Part shown: positions 5,608 to 51,300 of the stretch, in pieces
Layout: every line of letters starts with the position of its first letter
Position numbering within the stretch: position 1 is the stretch's first letter
Source of the DNA: Pocillopora verrucosa
Taxonomy: Eukaryota; Cnidaria; Anthozoa; Scleractinia; Pocilloporidae
Length of the DNA stretch: 64,000 nucleotides
Assembly (NCBI RefSeq): GCF_036669915.1
Contig: NC_089325.1
Span: forward strand, 2,949,347 to 3,013,346
Direction: 5' to 3'
The notes under the pieces: generated by a model
Databases searched by the model: none
Told to the model about the DNA's origin: nothing
The model's input: only the letters and a program-made list of their open reading frames with translations
Position numbers and translations under genes: made by a program

Positions 5608-5894
5608 AAGAAAGGTAACAAAGGTTCATGTGCCTACAAGCTGTGCGAAACCAATGAGACATTTTGTATATCTATGTAAAAATATTTATATTTATGATAT
5701 TTGTATTTTTCAGTTCTTATCCTGTGTATATAAACCTCTTGCTACGTTACTGTGAAAATTACAAAATCAAGTTAAAGAGTTATGACAATAAAATAAATTG
5801 CAATGTGTAAAACACGAGTTGTTATATATGGATCAGTCCTTGAAAGGCATGTACAGCATCGTTTTACAGAAGCGTAAAATATCGCAAACGTTCG

Positions 5895-7174
5895 GCATAG
5901 GGTAAAATATGGACTGGACTATTTTTTGGACCATTTTTTGGACCATTTTTTGGACTATTTTTTTTGGACCATTTTGAAGGGGGGAAGCACACCATTAGTA
6001 CTGAGGGAGGGTAGGATGAAGTCTATCAGTACTAAGAGAGGGGTGGGAGGTGGAGTGTTATTACTCAGGGAGGGGTGTGAGACGGACAATTACTACGCAG
6101 GGAGGGGTGAGAGGTGGTTGTAATGGTGAACACTACTGGTTAATGGAGCTTTAACTCGATCACACAAACAATTTTGATTGGTTTTTCGTCTGAGTTTTTG
6201 TATGTTAAAATTTTAGCGCTTGGCCGCTGCGTTTCTTCATTTTTTTGTCATGCGAAAGCGAAACTGCCACGAAACACTGGACTTCTACGTTTTGCCGACG
6301 GAAATTATCAGTAAGCAACAGTAGCCACCATAGTTCCACTTCGCAGGCTTCATAGGTTTTAACGCAAGAACTGATCGACAGCCGATTGGGCAAATTGGAA
6401 AACAAACCTAGGGGAGTCGCGAGGAATACCTGGTCGCGATTTCCGGTGTCGGTGATTATCTCCTTTGTTTGCGAAACAGATGAAATCGAAATTTGCGCTT
6501 TCCCATTTTGAGAGAACAGCAGTGTTTTTGGTCGATTCGAGAACATGGATTCCTCTTCGAAATCGTTCGCTGATGATTTTATATAAACTTTAAAATTGCG
6601 ATAGCGCTTGTGAATTCTAAATGCTGCTAAGTTAAGACCGGAAATTCCGTGATCTCGTTTGATAAGATCTATGACAAAAGGAAGATAGTTAAGGTAGTAA
6701 TTACATACTGTATACACAAAGGGAAATTTGAAGCAACTGATGGTGCACAAGTTGACTCAAAAGGCGCACGCATAACTCAACAGTGGAGGATCGTAAACGC
6801 GATATTTTCAATACAAATTAAAGTCCAGTGTTTACGTGGCAGTTTTGCTTTCGCATGACAAAAAAAAATGAAGAAACGCCGCGGCCCGGCGCTAAAATTT
6901 TGACATACAAAAACTCAGTCGAAAAACCAATTAAAATTGTTTGTACGATCGATTTAAAGCTCCATTAGCTAGCAGTGTTTCCTATTACAACCACCTCCCA
7001 CCCCTCTCTGCGTAGTAATAGTCCGTCTCACACCCCTCCCTAAGTAATAACACTCCACCTCCCACCCCTCTCTTGGTACTGATAGACTTCATCCTACCCC
7101 TCCCTCAGTACTAATGGTGTGCTCCCCCTTCAAAATGGTCCAAAAAATAGTCCAGTCCATATTTTACCCTATGC
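5895..7174. mobile_element. foldback element with 350-390 bp inverted termini
   Basis: The left arm (5895-6283) and right arm (6821-7174) are inverted copies, about 90 percent alike by eye. Both begin GCATAGGGTAAAATATGG. The arms carry a 16-bp tandem repeat of GGACCATTTTTT type, longer in the left arm, and several GGGAGGGGTG-type G-runs. The core of about 540 bp has one 181-codon minus-strand frame (6205-6750) with no recognisable domain. It is absent from the unit 2 and unit 3 insertions, so it arrived in unit 1 alone. Confidence 0.75.
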
Positions 7175-9392: not shown

Positions 9393-12094
9393 ACCTGAAC
9401 CTGAATTTGTATTCTAAAGCTAAGAAAAGTAATTTTCGCATATTATTATGTAACATTTTTGTTATGATGTACTCAGCTTATCTTGACGTCCTAGAATCTA
9501 GAGGGAAAGTTTGATAGCCACGAAATTTTTTTCCCTCTGAAATTTTTCGCAGAAAACAGCTTTATTTTGCTTTGCTAGATGAGCACAATAATTATAAAGA
9601 TCCGCCCAGGGTAAACTTTGCAACCACATTGTGTCTTTTTGACTTGCAAATGTTTCTTAGCTGTCAAACTCAAGTGTTCTGAAACAGGTTATATATTAAT
9701 GAGGCGCCCAGCCGTCTGAAGACACGTACAGTGGTCTGCTTTTCTGCTTTTATTTTAAACAGAGTAGTTACATCAAGGTACTACTAGAAATTCCAGTTTT
9801 CCTTAAAACTTTCTCACCTTCAGAAGTCATTTATAGGTAATATCACTACACAAAAAGTAATAAGGATAGAGTAAATTGCCAGCTAGTGTGTTTTGGTTGA
9901 TAAAACACAGAATTCTTTCTATGTTTAATCATTTTTTTTTTTGCTACTATTTTTCGCTCTGTGTCAAAGATTGTTTTAACTTTGATCACGAAAATGTTAA
10001 ATAATGGATCTTAATCATTCGATTTGCATTTGTGGACAAAAAGTTTTGCCATGAATATCATTTGATTAATATAACATTTGCATCGGATGTAACTAAAAGC
10101 AAAAATGAGGAATGGAAAATGGTGAATGCGAAAATAAAATGGGAAATTGAAAGTGGGAAATTACTTTTTTGGAGATTTAATGTTTGAAATGCAGAATAGA
10201 TATTTATCGATGTTGATAATCGATATCGAAGCTTTCTTTCAAAAACGTTCAGGCAAAATTTAAGGGACGGAATAATTAATGATAACGAAAGAAATGATAC
10301 GAGACAGCTAAAGAATGTTTTAAAACCAAATTTCATTTGTTTCAGCAACAAGTTATGTGTCAAATTTAATCTGTTGAGAAGAATGAAAGAGCCATCTTAA
10401 TGTTTATCTGACAAGTAATAAATTGGAACTTTCGAAGAGGTTAGCCATTGAGGGCTTGAATTTTTCAGATTCCAAATACAAGTAACATCAAGCGACATAA
10501 GGAACCCACAGTTGAATATCCATTTTAAAATAGTGATCGTTTTATTTTTCGGAAGTAATAGATGTATGCTTCACAGAGAAATTCCGATAAGCAAAAGCAC
10601 TTGCCTCACTTTCCAAATTAGCGGCTGCAGCAAAACTGAAACCATCTCAAAGAACAATTTTGCTTTCACGACTATAGGACGCGCCAAGTAGACAATGAAT
10701 CTTACAGGTTTCAAACAGTAATTTGCATGAATATTGGTGGCAAGCGTGAGGCCAACTCCTAAACTTCCGGGGGTTTCCCGCAGACACGAGTAATTTCGTC
10801 CTTGAAATGTTCTTGTGATTTTAGTTTGGAGAATTTGGTATTGGATCAACTAGAAATCCCCTAATTAATGTTTTTCTTTATTCTCATGACTTGTCTGCTT
10901 GATAATGTATTAATATTGTAAGGAGAAATTCTGTCTTGGTCATTCTTGGGAGTTAAAGGGTAAAATGACGGATCTTAATCCTTCAATTTGCATTTGTAGA
11001 CAAAAAGTTTTGCCGTGAGTATCAGTTAATTACTATAACATTTGTATCGGATGTAACTGAAAGCAAAAATGAGGAATGAGGAATGGGGAATGGTGAATGG
11101 GAAAATAAAATGGGAAATTAAAAATGGGAAATTAAAAATGGGAAATTAATTTTTTTGGAGATTTAATGTTTATAATGCGGGAATAGATATTTATTAGCGT
11201 TGATAATCGATATTCAAGCTTTCTTTCAAAAACGTCCAGAGGCAAAATTTAAGGGACGGAATAATTAGTGATAACGAAAGAAATGATACGTGACAGTTAA
11301 AGAATGTTACAAAACCAAATTTCATTTTTTTCGGTAACAAGTGATAGGTCAAATTAAATCTGTTGAAAATAATGAAAGACCTATTTTGATGTTTCTCTGA
11401 AAATTAAAAAATTTTAAACGAAGACTTATCGTAATGGACGTAGAGCTTGAAAATCAGGGAATTTCACTTGAGGTATATCCTCGTGCATGCCCCTGTTTCA
11501 GGAGGATAGTTGGTCACATGATGCGTTTAGACCAATCACGCGCGACGAAAAATATTTGATGAATCATAACCAAAATTATTCCCCTCTCAAAAACAGTAAA
11601 TCTACGAGGAAAAAATGAATTTACCATAATCAGTTCCCATTTTATTTTCCCATTCCTCATTCTCCATTCCCTATTCCATATTTCTTATTCCATAAGTTCC
11701 ATTCTACATTTGCCATTCGCTTTTAGTAACATCTCATTTGCATCGCACCTGAGAACCAGCCTTAAGCGGCAGTTGGATCCTTTTGTTCCTAATGTCACGC
11801 AATATCCATAGGTGTTATGCTGGAAAATTAGATGCATATTTAAAACGGATTTGGAGTGGATAACAGTCTTGCCTGTGTCCGAGGACAGATAAAAGGAGAG
11901 CCGTTATTCAGCCGGTTGGTTTAAGTTAATCATTTTTGTTTTCATGAGTTTCTTTTGATATGTAAACCAAAAAGTGATTTTGTAATCTGGGTGGAGGGTG
12001 GATGCGATACGAGTGAACAATTTCCCTTCGGAAGGACATAGTTTTGTAACTGAAGCCATTTTACAGGAATCGGCTTGTTCTCTCATATCTTTTA
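9393..12094 (+). repeat. 3' flank of unit 1, non-coding, shared with other units
   Basis: No gene. The flank recurs downstream of units 2 and 3, and partly of unit 4. It holds two direct copies of a block of about 450 bp (about 9985-10430 and 10965-11420), each with GAGGAATGGGGAATGG-type strings. An inverted version of that string lies at about 11636-11750. Between the direct copies lies an interspersed repeat that ends in TTGGGAGTTAAAGGGTAA. Relative to unit 2, about 500 bp is missing near 9777. Confidence 0.7.
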
Positions 12095-12600
12095 AGTGTT
12101 ACTAACGCTGTTTTGAAAACACTGTGCTTTTAAAATTACCAGTGTCTGGTTAGGTTTAAACGAAATGCGAATTTGCAGTTAGAGTTTGGGTTGGCAGTTA
12201 GAGTACACGGGCCTTAAAGCGAGCACTCAGTAGTTTCAGAGTCGGAGTTCTACCGTATCACGAGTCAGGTTCGCACCTTGGTCGGGTTCGGCGTTAAGAT
12301 AACGGCGTAATTCGTGATTTCATTCGTCTATACACACGAACTTTCATGTTTTTGGATATTACCGGTATATATTATAACCAACCATAATAAAGCCACTAAC
12401 ACATCGACAAGATGTCTACCTTTGCGTTCGTACAGTAGTCTCACATTGCCAGTAACGCAATTGTAAGAATGATCAACTGGCTATCTCTGGGTCTATATAA
12501 TGGGAAATTGCCATAGAGCAAGTAGCGCAATGACTTAACGGCTACCTTTGCGTTAGTATTAAAGGGGAATCTTATCTAACCAGTAAAGTAATGACTTCAC
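12095..12600 (+). repeat. segmental duplication, upstream flank of unit 2
   Basis: Near-identical to 690-1203 and 19724-20230. Marks the start of the second unit and ends in the GACTTCAC target-site copy (12593-12600). Confidence 0.85.
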
Positions 12601-13802
12601 GGGGGTGTCACGATAGCTAAGACCTAAGACCTAAGACCTAAGACCCCTCAAAAAATTAAGACCCCTCGATCACTAAGACCTCTCGAAAACTAAGACCCCT
12701 CGAAAGACTGGTGCAGGATTCAGGTTTTCGCACTTGAAAAAAAATACAAAACTAAGACCCCTATTTGAATTCATGGCTCATTACAGCGCAACACTTGACT
12801 ACAGTTCGAGTCACGACTTTTGAGAAACGTGACACATCGAGAGCATTCTTTGCTGCGCTGACGTAAGAAACTGTTAATTACGCGCTCTTAAGTTCGACAA
12901 GTGCTGTTTGATAAAGGATCGTGTTCACGAGACTGCAATGAGCCCATCAGAAGGTGAGACATATATTCATGACGCGAATAGTAGCGTCCTTTTGGCGTCG
13001 TTTGCGATTACTCCTGGCTTTACTTTTCACGTGTGAAGTCATCTGTGGACTCTTTTTCTTTCAAAATGTCATGAATTTCCGACCTTTACTCCTGGCTTTA
13101 CTTTTGGCGTGTGAAGTGATCTGTGGACTCTTTTTCTTTCAAAATGTCAAGGACTTCCGGCCTTTATTCCTGGTTTTGGCGTGTGAAGTGATCTGTGAAC
13201 TCTTTTTCTTTCAAAATGTCAAAATTAAGTTAAAGAGTTATGACAATAAAATAAATTGCAATGTGTAAAACACGAGTTGTTATATATGCATCAGTTCTTG
13301 AAAGGCATGCACGGCATCGTTTTACAGAAGCGTAAAATATCGCAAACGTTCTCAAAACGACTTTTGGCAATACGCGCTAGGATAGCGCATCACGTTGATG
13401 TTGTCACGAGCTCGCATTCGTTATAGTCTGATTAGCAAAAGGGAATGTTGCCAAAAAATTCAGACAGCTGGAAAATGGCAAATGGGCATGTAAATATTGC
13501 CCAGTTACGATAGTTTAGCAACGCGTGAAGATCGCCTTTCTGACCGCTTTACAGTCGCCGTAAAATATCGTAAATATTCACTATACGACTTTTTACAAGG
13601 CACGTAAAGATAACGTTTTTAGTCTCTCTCCGTGGTCTTTACGTACTATCGTTTTCAATGCGTAAAGACATTCTTTACGATAGTGTAAAGAAGTTCGTAA
13701 AGACGCGTAAAGAGGATCTTAACGCTTTCTTTACGGCATTTTTACGGATTCGTAAATTTATAATTTCATACTGTATCTTAGGTCTTAGCTTTCGTGACCC
13801 CC
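12601..13802 (+). mobile_element. composite insertion, copy 2 (1.2 kb)
   Basis: It has the same termini as copy 1 (GGGGGTGTCACG at the left, CGTGACCCCC at the right) but only 1.2 kb between them. It lacks the LINE, the MITE and the foldback element. It keeps the 78-bp tandem repeat (about 13015-13220), but the coding fragment that follows it in copy 1 is deleted, because CAAAATGTC runs straight into AAAATTAAGTTAAAG. The right flank is AACTTAAC, one base different from copy 1. Confidence 0.75.
13500..13760. repeat. right-end CGTAAA motif cluster, copy 2
   Basis: About eleven CGTAAA/TTTACG motifs occur in 260 bp next to the right end of the insertion. Nearly identical to the unit 3 cluster, with more differences from unit 1. 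Confidence 0.7.
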
Positions 13803-16567: not shown

Positions 16568-19500
16568 ACCCGAACCTGAATTTGTATTTTAAAGCTAAGA
16601 AAAGTAATTTTCGCATATTATTATGTAACATTTTTGTTATGATGTAGTTAGATTATCTTGACATCCTAGAATCTAGAGGGAAAGTTTGATAGCCACGAAA
16701 TTTCTTCCTTCTGAAATTTGTCGCAGAAAACAGTTTTATTGTGTCTTTGCTTTGGGCGCAATAATTATAAAGATCCGCCCAGCGTAAACTTTGCAAACAC
16801 ATTGTGTCTTTTTGACTTGCAAATGTTTCTCAGCTATTAACCTCAAGTGCTCTGAAACAGGTTATATATTAATAAGGCGCCCAGCCGTCTGAAGACACGT
16901 ACAGTGGTCTGCTTTGCTGCTTTTATTTCAAACAGAGCAGTTACATCAAGGTACTTGTTTTGACGTGGAAGCGGAAGAACTTTATTTTCATCAGTAACAA
17001 ATTCTCAGTCATGCAATGCAGCGGAAATAAGTGGTGCGAGATATATAATAGCGTGCTTTTCCATACTATTCTTCCGATGTAATTGTCGGAGACTGCGTGA
17101 TTACTTGCGTGAAGTTAATTTTGTCAACAACATTATCATGGAGTTTCTAATTTGTACATGATTGACGTAACCTCGAATAACCTTTTTCATAGTGCTTAGC
17201 AACGATCAATCACAATGTAAAGAATGTAGTATAAGAATTAGGATCTCGTTTCAAGTTGCCTGAGTAGCTCTTTACACGCCTGCTGTAACCGAGTGAATAC
17301 GCGAGAACGATTAAACAGTTAAACTCAGTCGAGTCTGTTAATTGAGTCCTGTAAGTTAGAAGACCGGTTATCCCTAGTAAACGGGGCAAGGTTTACGAAA
17401 TAATCAACGATCGCCACTGTCTGCCTTGCTATAACTGAATAGAACTAAAATATCTTTAACTACTAGAAATTCCAGTTTTCCTTAAAACGTTCTCACCGTC
17501 AGAGGTCATTTATAGGTAATATCACTACACAAAAAGTTAAAAGGATAGAGTAAATTGCCAGCTTGGCTCAAGTCATTTTTTTTGCTACTATTTGTCGCTC
17601 TGTGTCAAAGATTGTTTTAACTTTGATCACGAAAATGTTACATAATGGATCTTAATCATTCAATTTGCATTTGTGGACAAAACGTTTTGCCATGAATATC
17701 AGTTGATTAATATAACATTTGCATCGGATGTAACTAAAAGCAAAAATGAGGAATTGGGAATGGGGAAATAAAATTGGAAATTGAAAGTGGGAAATTACTT
17801 TTTTGGAGATTTAATGTTTGAAATGCAGAATAGATATCTGTCAGCGTTGATAATCGATAAACAAGCTTTCTTTCAAAAACGTTCAGAGGCAAAATTTAAG
17901 GGACGGAATAATTAATGATAACGAAAGAAATGATACGAGACAGCTAAAGAATGTTTTAAAACTAAATTTCATTTGTTTCAGTAATAAGTGATGTGTCAAA
18001 TTAAATCTATTGAGAAGAATGAAAGAGCTATTTTAATGTTTATATGACAAGTAATAAATTGGAACTTTCAAAGAGGTTAGCCATTGAGGGCTTGAATTTT
18101 TCAGATTCCAAATGCAAGTAACTTCTCAACACCAAGCGACATAAGGAACCCACAGTTGAATATCCATTTTAAAATAGTGATCGTTTTATTTTTCGGAAGT
18201 AATAGATGTATGCTTCACAGAGAAATTCCGATAAGCAAAAGCACTTGCCTCACTTTCCAAATTAGCGGCTGCAGCAAAACTGAAACCATCTCAAAGAACA
18301 ATTTTACTTTCACGACTATAGGACGCGCCAAGTAGATAATGAATCTTACAGGTTTCAAACAGTAATTTGCATGAATATTGGTGGCAAGCGTGAGGCCAAC
18401 TCCTAAACTTCCGGGGGTTTCCCGCAGACACGAGTAATTTCGTCCTTGAAATGTTCTTGTGATTTTAGTTTGGAGAATTTGGTATTGGATCAACTAGTAA
18501 TCCCCTAATTAATGTTTTTCTTTATTCTCATGACTTGTCTGCTTGATAATGTATTAATATTGTAAGGAGAAATTCTGTCTTGGTCATTCTTGGGAGTTAA
18601 AGGGTAAAATGACGGATCTTAATCCTTCAATTTGCATTTGTAGACAAAAAGTTTTGCCGTGAGTATCAGTTAATTACTATAACATTTGTATCGGATGTAA
18701 CTGAAAGCAAAAATGAGGAATGAGGAATGGGGAATGGTGAATGGGAAAATAAAATGGGAAATTAAAAATGGGAAATTAATTTTTTTGGAGATTTAATGTT
18801 TATAATGCGGGAATAGATATTTATTAGCGTTGATAATCGATATTCAAGCTTTCTTTCAAAAACGTCCAGAGGCAAAATTTAAGGGACGGAATAATTAATG
18901 ATAACGAAAGAAATGATACGTGACAGTTAAAGAATGTTACAAAACCAAATTTCATTTTTTTCGGTAACAAGTGATAGGTCAAATTAAATCTGTTGAAAAT
19001 AATGAAAGACCTATTTTGATGTTTCTCTGAAAATTAAAAAATTTTAAGCGAAGACTTATCGTAATGGACGTAGAGCTTGAAAATCAGGGAATTTCACTTG
19101 AGGTATATCCTCGTGCATGCCCCTGTTTCAGGAGGATAGTTGGTCACATGATGCGTTTAGACCAATCACGCGCGACGAAAAATATTTGATGAATCATAAC
19201 CAAAATTATTCCCCTCTCAAAAACAGTAAATCTACGAGGAAAAAATGAATTTACCATAATCAGTTCCCATTTTATTTTCCCATTCCTCATTCTCCATTCC
19301 CTATTCCATATTTCTTATTCCATAAGTTCCATTCTACATTTGCCATTCGCTTTTAGTAACATCTCATTTGCATCGCACCTGAGAACCAGCCTTAAGCGGC
19401 AGTTGGATCCTTTTGTTCCTAATGTCACGCAATATCCATAGGTGTTATGCTGGAAAATTAGATGCATATTTAAAACGGATTTGGAGTGGATAACAGTCTT

Positions 19501-19723
19501 GCCTGTGTCCGAGGACAGATAAAAGGAGAGCCGTTATTCAGCCGGTTGGTTTAAGTTAATTATTTTTGTTTTCATGAGTTTCTTTTGATATGTAAACCAA
19601 AAAGTGATTTTGTAATCTGGGTGGAGGGTGGATGCGATACGAGTGAACAATTTCCCTTCGGAAGGACATAGTTTTGTAACTGAAGCCATTTTACAGGAAT
19701 CGGCTTGTTCTCTCACATCTTTT
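16568..19723 (+). repeat. 3' flank of unit 2, non-coding
   Basis: No gene. It matches the unit 1 flank, with about 500 bp extra (about 16952-17460) that is also present in unit 3 and partly in unit 4. It contains the same direct repeats with GAGGAATGGGGAATGG strings (about 17740 and 18715) and their inverted form at about 19265-19375. Nearly identical to 26587-28470 until unit 3 departs. Confidence 0.7.
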
Positions 19724-20230
19724 AAGTGTTACTAACGCTGTTTTGAAAACACTGTGCTTTTAAAATTACCAGTGTCTGGTTAGGTTTAAACGAAATGCGA
19801 ATTTGCAGTTAGAGTTTGGGTTGGCAGTTAGAGTACACGGGCCTTAAAGCGAGCACTCAGTAGTTTCAGAGTCGGAGTTCTACCGTATCACGAGTCAGGT
19901 TCGCACCTTGGTCGGGTTCGGCGTTAAGATAACGGCGTAATTCGTGATTTCATTCGTCTATACACACGAACTTTCATGTTTTTGGATATTACCGGTATAT
20001 ATTATAACCAACCATAATAAAGCCACTAACACATCGACAAGATGTCTACCTTTGCGTTCGTACAGTAGTCTCACATTGCCAGTAACGCAATTGTAAGAAT
20101 GATCAACTGGCTATCTCTGGGTCTATATAATGGGAAATTGCCATAGAGCAAGTAGCGCAATGACTTAACGGCTACCTTTGCGTTAGTATTAAAGGGGAAT
20201 CTTATCTAACCAGTAAAGTAATGACTTCAC
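19724..20230 (+). repeat. segmental duplication, upstream flank of unit 3
   Basis: Third copy of the unit 5' flank, near-identical to 12095-12600 and again ending at GACTTCAC. Confidence 0.85.
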
Positions 20231-21100
20231 GGGGGTGTCACGATAGCTAAGACCTAAGACCTAAGACCTAAGACCCCTCAAAAAATTAAGACCCTCGATC
20301 ACTAAGACCTCTCGAAAACTAAGACCCCTCGAAAGACTGGTGCAGGATTCAGGTTTTCGCACTTGAAAAAAAATACAAAACTAAGACCCCTATTTGAATT
20401 CATGGCTCATTACAGCGCAACACTTGACTACAGTTCGAGTCACGACTTTTGAGAAACGTGACACATCGAGAGCATTCTTTGCTGCGGAAAGCGCACTCCG
20501 ACATCCGTCAGAAGGAGGTCATCTCGGGTAGATTTCCGATTACGAAATCCGAGCTCGCCCGATGTTGTCTTCGTGATGAAGGCCCTATTTAGCATATTAG
20601 ACCCGCAAAACAGAGTAGAAACGAACACGTGCTTCGCTCATGACTTCGTATTAGCCTTAAGATATTTGCATTTTTTTCCGTTGCTTACCTATATTACAGA
20701 CTCCAACAAATTTTTGCGATGCCTCCTTTTCACGGATGGCCGATTACAACTACAACATAGTAACACCTCCACGAAATCTGTCAAAAGGAGGATGTTACAA
20801 TACCAGAGGTCATCTCGGGTAGATTTCTGATGACGAAATCCGAGCTCGCCCGATGTTTTCATGAAGGCCCTATTTCGCATTTTAGAGCCGCAAAATAGAG
20901 TAGAAAGGAACACTTACTTCGTTTTCGCTCATGACTTTGTATTAGCGTTAAGATATTTGCATTTTTTTCCGTTGCTAACCTATATGACAGATTCCACAAA
21001 ATACATTTGACGCCTCCTTTTCACGGATGGCCGATCACAACTACAACGTAATGACATCTTCACGAAATCTGTCAAAAGGAGGATTTTAAAACACCGGAAA

Positions 21101-21589
21101 TCTTCTGGATTTCTGATGAAATAAATTTAACGCAGTTACGTTCAGAGTTTAAGCGATATATTGTTATTTCTAATATGGTAATTGATAAAAAAATTGTACA
21201 TTACCTCGATTGGACGGAGATTAAGTTTGAATATAATGTAGCAGGCGATATTACTTTTGTCGACAAGGATAATCCGTGACTTGTCTCACCTATTATACTT
21301 TCTCTATCTGCGTTGTGCCATGATCATCATTGAAAATATTCTATGATAATATTTTTAGATGAGGATTTTCAATTCTAAACGCAAGAGCGTACTTAGGGAA
21401 AGATCTATAAGAAACAGTTTCTCATGAATACATTTTAAAAATTCTTTTAGCTGACTTCTACATAGATAAAAAATTACTACACATATATATTTCACTTCGA
21501 CGATTATCTTAATAAACAATTAATGGGAAGTTCTGAGAATCAGTTTTTAATACTACTTTTCTCTTCCTGCTTAAGGGCTCTTTCGCAGT
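21101..21589. other. AT-rich interior of the MULE-like element, no gene
   Basis: No frame of note. This DNA separates the tandem left inverted repeat from the endonuclease palindrome and has no counterpart on the right side. Confidence 0.5.
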
Positions 21590-21604
21590 CCTTTTATATG
21601 ATCA

Positions 21605-21985
21605 CTAATTAGCGGCCTTTTTTCTGACGAGGTGTAAATAGGCGTCAGGAAGCAGACCGCCATCGTCACGATTTAAAGGAGCGTGGGCGGAGTTAATGTG
21701 CCAAGCCTCCAAACAAAGGCGCTGGTGGTAACGCCGATTAGTAGTGATAATTTTAGAATTATCCCACCCAATTGTATGGTTGGTTAGGCAAGTATGCTCC
21801 GATAAAGCTGAATTTTCCTTTTTGCAAAGAAAAACCGCTTTTTGGTGCTCTTTTAACCGTGTACCAAACTGGCGTTTGGTCTGTCCGATGTATTCGTTAT
21901 CACAGTCATTGCAAGGAATAGAATAAATGGCGTCGGTTCGTTGTTCTTTCGTGACAGGATCCTTAGGGGGCATATTTGGGGGCAT
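21605..21985 (-). CDS. Penelope-like GIY-YIG endonuclease domain, left arm
   Basis: 126 codons on the minus strand. The shared segment begins KDPVTKEQRTDAIYSIPC and contains the GIY-YIG signature as IYSIPCNDCDNEYIG, followed by the catalytic Arg in TRLKEH and a probable catalytic Glu in CLEAWHI. A CxxC pair (CNDC) and later Cys/His residues resemble the Zn-binding form of Penelope-like endonucleases. The reverse transcriptase that normally precedes this domain is absent, so it is a fragment. The first few residues (MPPNMPP) come from the palindrome centre and are unlikely to be native. Product activity is unknown. Confidence 0.75.
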   Translation of the reverse strand: MPPNMPPKDPVTKEQRTDAIYSIPCNDCDNEYIGQTKRQFGTRLKEHQKAVFLCKKENSALSEHTCLTNHTIGWDNSKIITTNRRYHQRLCLEAWHINSAHAPLNRDDGGLLPDAYLHLVRKKAAN

Positions 21986-22371
21986 ATTTGGGGCATATTT
22001 TCGCCAAACCTAAGGATCCTGTCACGAAAGAACAACGAACCGACGCCATTTATTCTATTCCTTGCAATGACTGTGATAACGAATACATCGGACAGACCAA
22101 ACGCCAGTTTGGTACACGGTTAAAAGAGCACCAAAAAGCGGTTTTTCTTTGCAAAAAGGAAAATTCAGCTTTATCGGAGCATACTTGCCTAACCAACCAT
22201 ACAATTGGGTGGGATAATTCTAAAATTATCACTACTAATCGGCGTTACCACCAGCGCCTTTGTTTGGAGGCTTGGCACATTAACTCCGCCCACGCTCCTT
22301 TAAATCGTGACGATGGCGGTCTGCTTCCTGACGCCTATTTACACCTCGTCAGAAAAAAGGCCGCTAATTAG
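21976..22371 (+). CDS. Penelope-like GIY-YIG endonuclease domain, right arm
   Basis: 131 codons on the plus strand, identical from KDPVTKEQ to the C-terminal RKKAAN with the left-arm frame and pointing away from it. The different N-terminal residues are read from the palindrome centre. Downstream lies a Penelope-type 3' flank with the hammerhead-like core. The two frames overlap head to head by about 10 bp at their starts. As in the left arm, no reverse transcriptase is joined to it. Confidence 0.75.
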   Translation: MGAYLGHIFAKPKDPVTKEQRTDAIYSIPCNDCDNEYIGQTKRQFGTRLKEHQKAVFLCKKENSALSEHTCLTNHTIGWDNSKIITTNRRYHQRLCLEAWHINSAHAPLNRDDGGLLPDAYLHLVRKKAAN

Positions 22372-22404
22372 TGATCATATAAAAGGACCTCTTGTTGCAG
22401 CGTT

Positions 22405-22460
22405 TAGATCACCCCTGATGAAGGCACTAGACAGGAGTGTCGAAACGTTGGGTCTATGAA
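22405..22460 (+). ncRNA. hammerhead-ribozyme-like core of Penelope type
   Basis: CTGATGA (22415-22421), one A, a six-base-pair GGCACT/AGTGTC stem with a seven-base loop, then GAAAC (22442-22446). Next comes GTTGG and then GTC, which would give a short stem III and a GUC cleavage triplet. Penelope-like elements are known to carry hammerhead motifs in this position. Complementary stem I arms are not visible, so it may be a relic. Confidence 0.5.
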
Positions 22461-23031
22461 TTGTAACTTCTTCGGTTACATTCATTAAATCTGCAAACCA
22501 GTGTAGCTTCAAACCATGTCAGATACTTTGATATCTCGCACGATAACAAATTTCCCGCCTTTGCTAGTTTGGACCATTCAATTGTCTGGGAGTTTCCTCT
22601 CCATTTCCGGTGTTTTAAAATCCTCCTTTTGACAGATTTCGTGGAGGTGTTACTATGTTGTAGTTGTAATCGGCCATCCGTGAAAAGGAGGCATCGCAAA
22701 AATTTTGTGGAGTCTGTAATAAAGGTAAGCAACGGAAAAAAAAAAGCAATATCTTACGCCTAATACGAAGTCATGAGCGAAAACGAAGCACGTGTTCGTT
22801 TCTACTCTGTTTTGCGGGTCTAATATGCTAAATAGGGCCTTCATCACGAAGACAACATCGGGCGAGCTCGGATTTCGTAATCGGAAATCTACCCGAGATG
22901 ACCTCCTTCTGACGGATGTCGGAGTGTGCTTTCCCTTTGCTGCGCTGACGTAAGAAACTGTTAATTACGCGCTCTTAAGTTCGACAAGTGCGGTTTGATC
23001 GAGAGCATTCTTTGCTGCGCTGACTTTCAAA

Positions 23032-23211
23032 ATGTCAAGAATTTCCGACCACATCAGCGTGAGCGACAGTTTTACTGTGCTACTGGACGATTCTTTGAAA
23101 GAATGCCAATCTTACAGAGAAAAATTGAGGCAGCGCGGTGAACAAAATGCCTTAAAGTTCGAAGAGCTTTCAAACAAAGTGGACTCTTCGTGTAAACTTG
23201 TCGCCGAGTAA
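23032..23211 (+). pseudogene. second copy of the MSRISD coding fragment
   Basis: 59 codons from MSRISDHISVSDSF to KLVAE, then an in-frame TAA where the 5410-5607 copy reads Lys. Downstream codons still read similar sequence in frame (SRSKETK, then HVPTSCAKPMRHFVYLC in another frame), so the longer ancestral frame has decayed. It lies in the unit 3 insertion without the preceding tandem repeat. Not recognised as a known family. Confidence 0.45.
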
Positions 23212-45400: not shown

Positions 45401-48343
45401 TCAAGGCGCACAAATTTACACCTTGAGATTCTAAATAAAGTCAAAACTACACTGAATTCACTTCCGTGAGGTTTGTATCATTTCGTACTAGATTTGCGAG
45501 TAATTAACTCTTCACATTATTTAAAAGTGTTCAACTCCATTTCCTTTTTCTCATCACTGGAAATTTCACGCTGAAGCTATCTACTTTAATCTTCTCGTTT
45601 TAAATAGAGCTTGAGATGTCATTAAACTGATCTGTTTTATCAGCGGGCAAGTACAAAGTGGATTTGCACATCAGCATTTCCGTCTTTCGTATCGAAATCA
45701 AATTAATCCACAATTTGTACCTAAACTTCACGCAAAATCCTTCAAAAAGAAAGAAATTTAGAAATTAGAAAGCGATATTCTGGAGGGGAAAAATGGAGTC
45801 TTGCAAATGCCATTTGCGATCTCCATTTCTGAGCATGTTCTTAAAGAAACACCACAAGTAATCCATCTCGTGGGCAAATTTGCGTGATTCTATTTTCGGA
45901 TCAATTCGTTTGCTTTCACTCATCTCTCTACTACTCAAAAGATTTGAATTCGATAGCATTGTGGAACAAACTAATGAGCCGATGGAATTTATATATTTTG
46001 ATCTACAGCTGATTGGAATTTTCGGACACAATATTATCACGCAAGGGATTAATTTAATGAAAAGCTGTGTTCTTAGTTTGGCAATATTGCCCGCTCCGGA
46101 TAACTCTCGAAAAGTTCCAGTTTGCATTTTTAGAGATTAAACAAAATGTCAAACACTTGAAGGCTGTATTAATTCGGCAAATGGCACGCATCTGCTAAAC
46201 CACAACATTTATATAGCATCGCGCTTCAAATAACATATATTTATCTTCATCACGACACGTTTGGCGTGTGGCTTCGTGGCTAAGCATAATTTATCATTTA
46301 CACTAAGAACAGTGCCATTTCGCAGTGAGACCATTTTAGTGAAAAATCAACGAAAACATTTCAACGAAAGCCCTAACTTACATCTGAATAAATTTTGGTC
46401 CCTGAGCCACGTTATCAACGTACAAATTCTCTATAGTGCCTCATACTTAATCCATTCAACATTACTGTGGAGAAATTGCAATCCATTCCTTGAAAACCAC
46501 AAATTTGCAGTCTTCGTTTCAATAATTGTTTTCACCTGCAAAACTTGTAAAACCTTGTATCATCTTTGGAATTTAAAAAAAGGGAAAAGAAGAAAATGGA
46601 AGTTGGTTTACCTCATAATGATATGGTGCGATGGAGAAACCTAAGAAAATAATAGAAATTAATTGTCCTTTATTTTTCTACTTAGAATTGAAAGAGAAGA
46701 AAGCTTTAGGAAGTAATTTCAAGCTCACCACGTTGCAACTGCTAATCGATTTTACAATTTGCGCGGTAAATAGACCATTTCAGTTCGAATTTTTGAGAAC
46801 ACTCCCTAGAATGACTGCTGACGTTTAAAGAATCGACAGCGAATGAACCTTATTGGTCAACGAAGAGTTACACAAATGTCTAATATTCAAGAAATATCTT
46901 TCAATTCAAGGCGAAACTTCAACCTGTTTTTTTTTCTCTCTTTATCTTTTTTCCTGTCAGTTTTTTACGTTTTTTTCATATCACTGTTTAATTAGGTAAA
47001 ATTCCCTCAGGAGGTGCGGCACCATGGTACTCTGAAAGAGACGGGGCTCCAAAACGCAATTTCATGGAAGAGACACCAAATGGATGAGATCATTCCTCTG
47101 TTTGATTTTTTTTTTTTTTTTCCATCGTGTCCAAAACTACCTTTTGTTTAAGGGAGTCAAAAAATTATTGTTGGGTGAGATGCAGAACTGATGACAAAAA
47201 GATGGTTAAGAATTGAGATAATTTTAAAAACGAAATATCGAAGGTTAAACGTGAAAATTTCAACCTACATCTTAAAAGTAGTACAGAGTGTGACTAAGTT
47301 CAGTTCAAGATCCCTAAAGTGTTCGAAAACCGAAAATCCATATTACTTCATTCTTATTTTAGTTAGACGCGTCACATGGATTTTGAATTACTAACACTTT
47401 TTGAAATTTAAATTAGGCCTCGCAAATGAATAGGATGGAAAAATTTAATGAACATTCTTGGTAAACATAATGCTAATTCAAAGCTACCTGTTTAACGCCA
47501 AACGATCCATTAAAAACTTCGAGTCAATTAACATAAACACTTTGTTTTCGACTGGAGTTTTCCTATTGCGAAAAGTAAACAAACTGCCTTCGCACCTACT
47601 GAAAACAAAATTTACCTTTTCCCACTGTGAGATAAAAATGTTTGTCCAGGGCAGTTACAAAATCTAAAGTATGTTATAATTTACGCCGCAAAATGTGTTG
47701 TACCCTCCCTGAACACAATAGGAAATAAGTAATTTAATGTCCAACAATGGCTTATTCAAAAAGTGTAATTACACATTGTGGGGGTTTCCGAACGAGTATG
47801 CACATTTACGCTTATGAAGTGGTTCATTACGACAAACTCTTCCCGAAAATTCGAGATTTCGTTTCAGAATTCTAACTTAATTTAAATAGAATTGTAAAAT
47901 CTGAAGCTAAATGTCTTTGAATAATTGTAACGAGCGATGTTATTGTACCTGATAATTTCTTACCTGTAAAGCAAACAATCTTCGTAGAGTCTGTTGAAAT
48001 CTTCGCGCGAGATCAACTTGCAGCGATTTACGACTTGACCTATGGCTCCAACACTTCGCATCATGCGAACTTGCTCCACGTTGCAGTTCTTTCCTTGAAT
48101 GTTCATCCGTTTGAGTTTTGTGTACACAGTGTGCATTCCAGACACAAGATCCTTCAGAAAATACTCATACACTTGCGGAAAGCAAAGCAAATCTTCCCCC
48201 TCGACGTTGAAGGCGGCGATTTCTTCCCCGTTCAAATTTACCATTTTCAATTTGTAATCGCTCCCGTACGGTAATGTAGGAGTTTCCACTTCAATCGACT
48301 CGTAATGGTTTGGCGTTTGAGGAGAATACACTGGCGGCTCCAT
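39436..48343 (-). CDS. DACH1: Dachshund homologue (DACH, Ski/Sno/Dac family)
   Basis: Nuclear transcription cofactor acting in retinal-determination-type networks. Nine exons on the minus strand: 48343-47964, 43592-42872, 42785-42758, 42639-42553, 42384-42301, 41450-41385, 40836-40762, 40253-40179 and 39581-39436, giving 553 residues. Exon 1 holds the Dach-box N/Ski-Sno-Dac domain (about 27-126), with HTVYTKLKRMNI, CNVEQVRMMRSVGAI and NRCKLISREDF almost as in vertebrates. GPGRRKK at the exon 2 start is a likely nuclear signal. Exon 2 (about 128-367) is low-complexity Ser/Pro/Asn. Exons 4-8 form Dach-box C, a coiled coil (LLNIQGLLKVAAENTRQ, then REREVREKAER, then LQKKLKKEKRARRKL). Exon 3 is a 28-nt microexon. 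The exon 8 donor is ambiguous. Intron 1 is 4.4 kb. Confidence 0.9.
39700..39885. repeat. interspersed repeat in dachshund intron 8 region
   Basis: Contains CAGTATGCATATTCTCCATA and AGAAATCC...CAGAAAACTAG-like strings shared with 33610, 40890 and 56700. It lies upstream of exon 9 on the transcribed strand. Confidence 0.5.
40540..40625. repeat. pyrimidine-rich low-complexity tract
   Basis: A C/T-rich stretch of about 85 bp in the intron between dachshund exons 7 and 8, purine-rich on the transcribed strand. Confidence 0.7.
40890..41095. repeat. interspersed repeat in dachshund intron 6
   Basis: Shares ATCTCCATTCTGTTCTCTAT and TTTATTCTCATGACC strings with the other copies of this family in the window. 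Confidence 0.5.
42420..42520. repeat. interspersed repeat fragment in dachshund intron 4
   Basis: Begins AACCCTTAATTCCCGAGATC and includes CGAGAATTTGGTGTTAGATC, the same family as 60595-60805 and 63565-63785. Confidence 0.5.
43593..47963 (-). other. dachshund intron 1 (4.4 kb), no gene inside
   Basis: AT-rich. Open frames on both strands (for example 45765-46140) overlap each other and have no recognisable domain. Pieces of long first introns in DACH genes are known to carry enhancers in other animals, but no specific element can be named here. A T-run lies near 47108. Confidence 0.5.
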
Positions 48344-51300
48344 GTTTTTTTATGCCGGAGTTGCTGATCGCCGCAATGCGCAATTGTGTAACCGGCTCAG
48401 CGCATGCAAAAGTACTAATAGTAAACTCCAAGAATCAACAACTGTTAAATTTTGACAATGTCTAACCACGTGGGTAAACTTAAAAATCCCGCAATGCTCA
48501 TGCGTTAGAAGGTAGCCACGCCCAAAAATCACAGGCCGCTGATAGGCGATTGGTAGAAATTAGCGAGACTGTCATCAATCAGTCTGAAGTTAGATTTGTG
48601 ATGTTTTCTTCTGCTGGGAAGAAGAGTTTTTTCTTACACCAACAATCGCACCCGGGAATCAATTTTCAGATTTGATATTTGCCAGTGTGGCGTGGGTAGC
48701 TCTTGGTTTGCGTGGAGCGAATCATAAAGCTTTCGTGTGTTTGGCATATTTTTATGGACATTCCAAGACAAAATTGAATTGACTTAGATAATTACACATC
48801 AGGAAAATGGGTCATTTAGTAAATAGCTCGCTCCCGGAAACGCCAAGATCTGTAACAGTGTATTGTTTTCATGATAATCTGAGCTTGCATTTGCCAAATG
48901 GAATATGAATGATTTTGACAGATTTGCAGACTTGGGCACAGGCATTTTTAACGCGTTGATCGAAATGTGTGCTTCTGTAGGCGATATTTGATCAATATCA
49001 TAGATTTATGGTTAAAAATAGAATGTTTTGGTTGTGAACTTGATTTGTTAAGTCAATTCTGTGTATTATTTGTGAATTCCTTTCTCACGGCGTATGATTT
49101 TGTTGATAACAGAATTCAGCGACATTGAACAGGAATACGTCAAAATCAAATCTGATTGATCCTTTTTCTACCAACAGTAACTCAACTCATTTTCGCCTTG
49201 CAGATCACGTCTCAAAACCCCAAATATCCTTCTATTTGAAAGAAACACGGCCTAATTTTGTGGATTCATTGGGTTTCTTTGTGTGGTGGCAAAAAGCATT
49301 GCATAAATACACCCTTGAACCGTGCTTAGCTTTGTAAAACCACATTAAACAATAAGAGACTGAGGTGTCAGAATTTCAATTAACGTGAAATAACTCAGTC
49401 GCCGTTTTCAATAAATCAGAAACATTCTGAGGAATGAAACTTGAGGAGAAAAGCCTCAATTATTTCGAAAGCTGGGCACGAAAGCCACAGATTCTTCCAA
49501 AACGTTCTAGCTCTTGCAGTTTCCAAATTTTTAAGCGGCAAACTTTACTCGACATTAATTGTTTTCTGTTCAAACATTTAGCTAAGTAAATTCTAAGAAT
49601 CCTGTTGGTCGAAATGTGATATTTTGACAATACATATTCACTCAGCGCCAGTGTTATTATTGTTTTGTATTCTGTGATTTTCAGCATGATAACACAATTG
49701 CCGGCTTCCCTTTTGTCACGGTAATTTCAATGCATGGCTTATTTGCTGATTTGAACAAAAGCCTGCTCTGAACTCAAAACCCCACAGGCGAACGCGTCTC
49801 TGGAAAACAAACAAAAAACCCGAAGTTTTAATAAAGCCATGATCTTAACTTAAACATGATGATGCTTCTTGGCATACATATTGAAGTCATTACCTTTGTT
49901 GTCAAGCCAATATCATTTAATTGCCTAAGTTTCATTCAAAAAGCGCCCGTTGCATTCCATTTCAAAATGCTCACGTTATCTGTTGAGAAATACAGAAGCT
50001 CTGGATCTTAAAACGTATATTTTATGCAACAAGAAAGACGAACAGACTAACAGTGTTAGCTAAGTTTGCATCCTACAGCACGACAATTGCTGACAGTCAT
50101 TGTTGCATCGCATAAAATGAAGTGTACCATTAAACTGTTTCAACTAGGGTCAGCTGAATGACCAGTCATATTCCCCATTCAAGCTGTCTATAAGCAACGT
50201 CGAACAGCAAGTAAATTGTACCTATTTTCAGTAGGCCGAGGCTTTTATTAGTCCATAATCTTCCGAGTCCACTCCTTTCTCCATACGCGGGTTGATAAAA
50301 ACACAGTTTCCGGAAATATGTAGATCTTAAGTACCGGAAATGACAGATTTTTCCCTGAGTTTCCAAAAGCAAAACGTCATATAACGAGGTAAAATATATT
50401 TGGGAAAGAACAGAAGTAGATCCAAACTAAGACCCACTACATGGTAACTGGGGCGCCTAAAATCTCGCTTCGACGGGCCATGATCCTGTTGGTTTGAAGA
50501 AAACCATGCCAAACGGCTTCTCCAAAGTTGCGCTAATTTCACCCGTATTATGGGTAAAAGCGCGCCTTCCTCTAGGTTATGACGTAGCCCCAAAACGTGG
50601 ATACAATAGGCAATCGATTTTTCAGTAAAAATATCTTAGTTTCGTGGTAGCTGCCTCCAGATTATTCGTTATGGGATTCTTAAAAGCAGCGGGAGAATCA
50701 TTGTACCATTAAGATTAAGAAGGATTGCCCTACAAGCGGAAAACCAGCAATGGATGAAAGAGAACTTCTTATTTTTTTCCTTTTTTTTTGTAACGAACAC
50801 ATTTTTATCTGAAAACTTAAAAACAGGAATATGCTTAGTGCAATGGTGAGAAACTCGATTGACGTGTCGGTAACGAAGACAATTAAGAGAACTGACAAAT
50901 TTTTTTAGTTTAATTAATTGTGACAAATGATATCTTCTCAAGAGCCTTTTATTAACGGAGCCAAAACACAAGTCTGACCGTAAAAACAAAGTTATGTTCC
51001 AAGGCGACTTCCACGAAAAGTTTATCACAGCACGAGTTGAACCGACAATTACACTGAGAGGAAGTATCACAGATGTTTCCATGGCATAAACAAACATAAT
51101 AGGAATTTAAGCAGGAATTTCGAAAAACTGTGAGAAAAGGCATTGTCTGACAACAAGAAAATAATAATGATCTCAAGCCGACAAGGAGAAATCAGTTTTC
51201 GAGATGCAAAACATTTCGTGACACTGATAATAGCCACTAACGTCATGGTAAGTTTGAGCTATGAAAGAGACTAGTATCGGTCTGCTTTAAGTTCAACTGG

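Follow-up and report, generated by a model that had tools for sequence, protein, structure and literature searches.

The window analyzed here, a 64,000-nucleotide stretch of Pocillopora verrucosa DNA, carries a 2449-bp element at 20486–22934, which opens with GGAAAGCGCACTCC (20486), closes with the complement of GGAAAGCACACTCC (22934) and is bordered by the 9-bp sequence CTTTGCTGC on the left (20477–20485) as well as on the right (22935–22943). Two paralogues of the insertion site, at 12848–12856 and 1452–1460, lie in the same window, and both lack the element, have a near-identical left flank and contain the 9-mer once. Comparison with these two unoccupied sites indicated that the 9-bp repeat is a true target duplication, and the coordinates and the duplication reported in an earlier note on this DNA hold. 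The left flank matched the paralogue at 12092–12856 in 764 positions with 0 mismatches and 1 gap column; summed over 18210–20485, 7 mismatches were counted in 2276 bp (15 gap positions excluded from the count), and three stretches further left (17460–18209) were just 82–92% identical. Judged by the 7 mismatches in this 2276-bp flank, the landing of the element is recent, and gene conversion could lend it a falsely young look.

Around the element, a local duplication spans 7172–30950, with units containing TauD-type dioxygenase fragments and an identity of up to 97.5%. One unit holds another inverted-repeat insertion (5894–7171, ends GGCATAGGGTAAAATATGGACTGGAC), at the position of which the other two units have ~146 bp of different sequence. 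At 22998–23024, 64 bp off the element, a 27-bp sequence that duplicates the unoccupied target (ATCGAGAGCATTCTTTGCTGCGCTGAC) sits at a rearrangement junction and looks like templated filler copied off an empty site. A frame at 47963–48349 (minus strand) with a SKI/SNO/DAC Dachshund homology domain (Pfam, 112 bits) is an animal gene.

The element is framed by long inverted repeats. The outer unit of the left repeat, defined by arm alignment and as the end tag of the family described below, lies at 20486–20805 (plus strand), and alignment of the outer arms (20486–20807 versus 22606–22934) gave 310 matches, 11 mismatches and 9 gap columns, with 99% complementarity over the outermost 151 nt, in agreement with the roughly 310-bp inverted repeats noticed earlier. 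A second tandem unit, which the earlier note had not reported, follows at 20806–21106 (plus strand) according to arm alignment and tandem-repeat analysis, the latter of which placed two tandem copies of a 291-bp unit at 20515–21095, and the right end holds one unit (22606–22934, minus strand; arm alignment). Two tandem arrays were found in 20400–23100, this 2 × 291 bp array and a 3 × 12 bp array in the center of the Penelope segment. Between repeats and Penelope segment lie inner transposon sequences at 21107–21587 (minus strand), identified by tblastn matches to the predicted proteins P0124, P0144, P0145, and P0157 and ending on its right in a short coding relic related to P0207, and at 22520–22605 (minus strand), common to P0206–P0211, P0166, and P0171, with a Penelope border ambiguous by a few bases. 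The frame at 21055–21276 had no match in a Pfam search; weak matches between the later portion of this frame and designed TIM barrels (E values of 0.002 to 0.03) were taken as chance. No DDE transposase was seen among the frames of this copy.

To find relatives, the translated left repeat (20462–20827) was searched against predicted proteins at an E value of 0.01, which yielded 85 matches among 93 candidates. These end proteins are fortuitous reading frames that cross the repeat, and they were used as tags. A sequence pattern located the terminus in 62 of the 85, preceded by 47 distinct upstream peptides (at most six residues each), and the remaining 23 did not display it; the independent sites are somewhat fewer than 47, since some flanks are near-duplicates (HEWVSA, HEWISA, and HEWASA) and one consists of the start residue only. 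Thus, the suggestion that the inverted repeat occurs elsewhere was borne out by 85 predicted proteins, and the long repeat, as far as these translated matches tell, comes from a dispersed family. The viral and genome contigs searched contained no relatives of the repeat, and the relatives of the element are predicted proteins only, nearly all of them lacking DNA context. By pattern, the left inner sequence was common to 4 and the right inner sequence to 11 of the 85 end proteins, and 9 of the 85 passed from the repeat straight into the internal sequence of the element. tblastn against the whole window backed this run for P0145 (E value of 3e-4), P0157 (0.003), and P0144 (0.004) and was weak for P0135 (0.10) and P0175 (0.96); P0149, P0152, and P0174 gained no separate tblastn support in the window, and P0179 is a pattern-only case. 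The inner left sequence adjoins the repeat in other copies as well (P0124, P0144, P0145, and P0157, by tblastn), and tandem repeat units were recognized by pattern in P0121, P0122, P0123, P0126, and P0130.

Penelope-like elements encode a GIY-YIG endonuclease and a telomerase-like reverse transcriptase in the same frame and carry a hammerhead motif in a pseudo-LTR. The interior of the element holds two pieces of this type in a palindrome, of which the arms (21588–21967 and 22009–22388, 41 nt apart) are 380 nt long and 100% complementary, with 0 differences in 380 positions. As defined by arm comparison and frames, the left arm (21588–21967, minus strand) is an inverted partial copy of the endonuclease region that starts at PKDPV and has no Penelope 3′ end. 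The right copy (22009–22523, plus strand), delimited with the help of relatives, contains the end of the Penelope frame, since the window reads GHIFAKPKDPV after the center versus, for example, VAQKPFQTLGHIFAKPKDPV in relatives, and continues from the end of the arm at 22388 into a 3′ region common to Penelope relatives. We infer that the Penelope 3′ end lies near 22519–22523, since P0017, P0027, and P0032 diverge from there on, a placement that relies on protein translations. The center (21968–22008) is marked by three 12-bp units of GGGGGCATATTT at 21966–22000, which is what slippage or template switching would leave. The two head-to-head frames, described earlier as identical in protein, are so from PKDPV on, and the N-terminal residues read from the center differ.

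The endonuclease frames scored 17.7 bits with the Pfam GIY-YIG model (cut-off, 22.6) and matched 1,006 of 1,030 candidates at an E value of 0.001. Among the 120 matches listed, all screened by script and 18 viewed in full, P0004 and P0099 are named GIY-YIG by their source, the five named by organism are all from Pocillopora meandrina (94–99% identity), and just two weak matches to transposon parts (23% and 36% identity) were detected beside Penelope sequence. No endonuclease relatives were found in the viral contigs searched. The reverse transcriptase is absent, as the frame is truncated upstream of the endonuclease, where relatives extend further, and because of this truncation the Penelope family of the fragment is one that we infer. 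No hammerhead match was obtained with Rfam up to an E value of 1 in 20400–23100 or up to 10 in 22360–22620; a MIR2630 match was rejected as the palindrome scoring as a hairpin, and the fold of the palindrome merely restates the inverted repeat. The analysis supports the earlier observation that Penelope-type GIY-YIG frames lie inside a DNA transposon that has long inverted repeats and is flanked by a 9-bp duplication. That the palindrome is an assembly or read artefact, namely a fold-back read, would agree with exactly complementary 380-nt arms; it is highly improbable, as the arms continue into different known sequences (transposon on the left, the Penelope 3′ region on the right) and comparable junctions occur in other data.

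What this copy lacks can be read from relatives of the inner right sequence (minus strand, ending in SKYL at 22520), which, searched alone against predicted proteins, gave 6 matches among 6 candidates (P0206–P0211). Five of the six (P0207–P0211) continue from the inner right end into FAHSI or FTHSI, P0206 continues elsewhere, and none of the six continues into Penelope. P0207 runs on to a PHD finger (PHD_4, 27.3 bits, under the curated cut-off of 30.6; best E value of 4e-5 for PDB sequence matches to PHD fingers), shows no DDE part and terminates in NCERALKQEEKNNH. This end matched the window at 21590–21552 (minus strand), which is the left border of the palindrome, over 13 residues (E value of 0.011 in whole-window tblastn), and on 141 bp round the border it scored 25.8 bits versus at most 20.8 bits in 5,000 shuffles (0 of 5,000 as good). 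With the end of P0207 at the left border and the inner right sequence on the other side, the Penelope block therefore sits between two transposon pieces of which the middle is gone, a reading that, like the PHD frame, draws on one relative, P0207, itself probably an internally shortened copy. The earlier statement that there is no transposase applies to this copy, although the final codons of a P0207-related frame remain at 21590–21552.

Neither border of the Penelope block showed a target duplication belonging to Penelope itself. The hexamer TACTTT (21554 and 22524) was considered and rejected, because P0207-related transposon sequence reaches the palindrome border at 21588 and the left TACTTT is consequently off the border. 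One explanation for such borders is a repair patch, in which the resident transposon excised or broke and abortive gap repair deleted the middle and filled in the Penelope palindrome, as one event in place. Penelope occupying the place where the middle is missing, the lack of a detected Penelope target duplication, the 12-bp stutter at the center and the 0 of 380 differences between the arms all agree with it. The right copy, however, ends at a 3′ end common to other Penelope copies, as in an ordinary insertion, the deletion may be older given that P0207 is an internally shortened family copy, and the relatives are known from protein alone, which cannot display short junction overlaps. We regard this patch as unlikely; the structure seen here is equally compatible with an ordinary insertion in which target sequence was lost.

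Palindromes of this kind were also found away from the transposon. Among the 120 endonuclease proteins listed, 13 had antisense matches at an E value of 0.1; in a control with 2,400 fully shuffled proteins, 0 matches were obtained at 0.01, the level that this control covers rather than the range of 0.01 to 0.1. Antisense sequence directly before sense sequence, that is, a head-to-head junction, was convincing in P0089 (3e-7) and P0086 (2e-6), likely in P0021, P0026, and P0083 (0.005–0.006), P0007 (0.021), and P0076 (3e-4, 52% identity), and doubtful in P0075 and P0078. P0021, P0026, P0083, and P0007 may represent one event, because they have one junction in common. In P0005, P0067, P0070, and P0107, the antisense match was weak (25–35% identity) and away from the protein start. 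These data indicated that Penelope copies adopt the palindromic form on their own. In rotifers, the available part of PMC3846280 describes inverted-repeat structures with junction palindromes as abundant in Penelope, mostly head-to-head, and reads them as self-priming.

Nine weak matches tied end proteins to the Penelope region, and a codon-compatibility test was run on P0126, P0127, P0132, and P0158, with P0130, P0171, P0196, and P0205 left at the level of a weak match. P0126 ends in 11 residues that fit the Penelope 3′ end at 22520–22488 in antisense, with 30 of 33 bases compatible (0.909), compared with a maximum of 0.788 in 150 shuffled sequences scanned over the whole element; P0127, P0132, and P0158 showed no stand-out compatibility with the Penelope region. 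A search for shared 5-residue words missed P0126 and is thus the less sensitive test. The Penelope end in P0126 has the same orientation as here and another junction, and the sequence before that junction was compatible with the element at best at 0.573, a background level, and resembles P0158, which holds a P0126-like inner sequence and continues without Penelope. As the preceding inner sequence is unlike that of this element, P0126 is not the same composite. A second Penelope 3′ end within the family argues against a one-off event and points to repeated insertion or a favored site, without showing amplification of this composite.

These observations bear on the proposal of a new chimeric element class, in which the transposon captured a Penelope cassette and amplifies it. 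The clean 9-bp duplication on the composite means that both ends work, the young insertion (7 mismatches in 2276 bp) together with the identical arms means that Penelope may have been aboard, and P0126 is a second family member with a Penelope 3′ end. Yet none of the six relatives sharing this inner right end enters Penelope, so the same cargo in other copies, for which the earlier note had proposed a search, is not supported, with P0126 representing a second, different insertion; the palindrome form, moreover, recurs as head-to-head junctions in other Penelope copies. We consider the chimeric class very unlikely.

The best explanation, to which we assign a probability of about 0.8, is a non-autonomous Mutator/Rehavkus-type DNA transposon holding a nested, truncated head-to-head Penelope insertion, in a coral. 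One element landed inside another is a better fit than a new element class, both parts being of known kinds, and the available text of PMC3903597 describes retrotransposons nested in Mutator-like elements as common in maize and rice. Under this explanation, a member of the dispersed family with ~300-bp inverted repeats inserted here and created the 9-bp target duplication, as the empty sites show. Fuller members, to go by P0207, may have a frame on the minus strand that ends in a PHD finger and possibly represents the transposase, and this copy or its parent would have lost most of that stretch. The vacated place is occupied by a 5′-truncated Penelope, which retains its own 3′ end, and by an inverted partial copy head-to-head with it, an arrangement that reverse transcription would plausibly leave if it switched templates or primed itself at a break. 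The composite may then have arrived in one jump, or Penelope may have entered after the transposon had landed. In a further scenario, which strikes us as quite unlikely, the family would acquire Penelope sequence near its inner ends again and again, as here and in P0126, both with the Penelope 3′ end facing the near terminus; in this copy, a Penelope palindrome would have taken over the transposase region, and the whole composite would have jumped together.

Transcripts of the composite, if there are any, would form a perfect 380-bp hairpin directed at a retroelement family, which would be a mobile analogue of the Mu killer locus of maize (described in the available part of PMC3440606), and movement of the composite in one piece, if it took place, would illustrate how a hairpin built from a retroelement can be spread by a DNA transposon. 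The head-to-head Penelope copies are also relevant to the self-priming model that was put forward on the basis of rotifers. In addition, the data point to a coral Mutator-type family with a PHD-bearing relative, P0207, a possible lead to the autonomous partner of the family, while the accessible sections of PMC6446971 record Rehavkus from arthropods and annelids. A Penelope-with-Mutator composite in corals was not described in the titles and abstracts from partly listed literature searches. With the nested insertion resolved to a few bases and two empty sites in the window, the order and age of the events are testable.

Mutator-like elements (MULEs) have target duplications of 8–11 bp, long terminal inverted repeats in many families (not all) and a DDE transposase in the autonomous member. 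The present element resembles them in its 9-bp duplication, which is within 8–11 bp, and in its terminal inverted repeats of ~320 bp, and since no transposase was seen, the superfamily assignment rests on these two lengths. Rehavkus, an outgroup or sister of the MULEs in the available part of PMC6446971, shares the 9-bp duplication, and the repeats here are within the 26–400 bp recorded there. Its transposase has a PHD finger, with which the PHD_4 match in P0207 (below the cut-off, as given above) can be compared, the window holding a short relic only. The element differs from Rehavkus in that no transposase was seen, in that the minisatellite before the 3′ repeat was not found in this internally deleted copy (20400–23100), and in its host, given the arthropods and annelids noted there. 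Multiple-TIR MULEs, from the portion of PMC3310237 available, are alike in a tandem repeat unit at the end, 9–11-bp duplications and a non-autonomous nature, but are from plants, and the form with an extra unit at one end only, as here, is rarely multiplied there. The head-to-head Penelope-like elements of PMC3846280 share the GIY-YIG endonuclease, the head-to-head inverted repeat and the truncation; in that source's available text the inverted pieces are mostly pseudo-LTRs, whereas here the endonuclease end is inverted, inside a DNA transposon. Finally, Tm1 of root-knot nematodes (available text of PMC3169594) has composite inverted repeats, mostly 9-bp duplications, an empty paralogue as proof and nested inverted-repeat insertions, and it raises the alternative that the element belongs to another transposon group with similar duplications, such as the Foldback type, instead of Mutator/Rehavkus. 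We hold this to be unlikely, as the authors of PMC3169594 class Tm1 as Mutator/Foldback, and as its repeats, in a text whose available part mentions no Penelope, are built of short tandem units of 13–15 bp versus the 291-bp unit found here.
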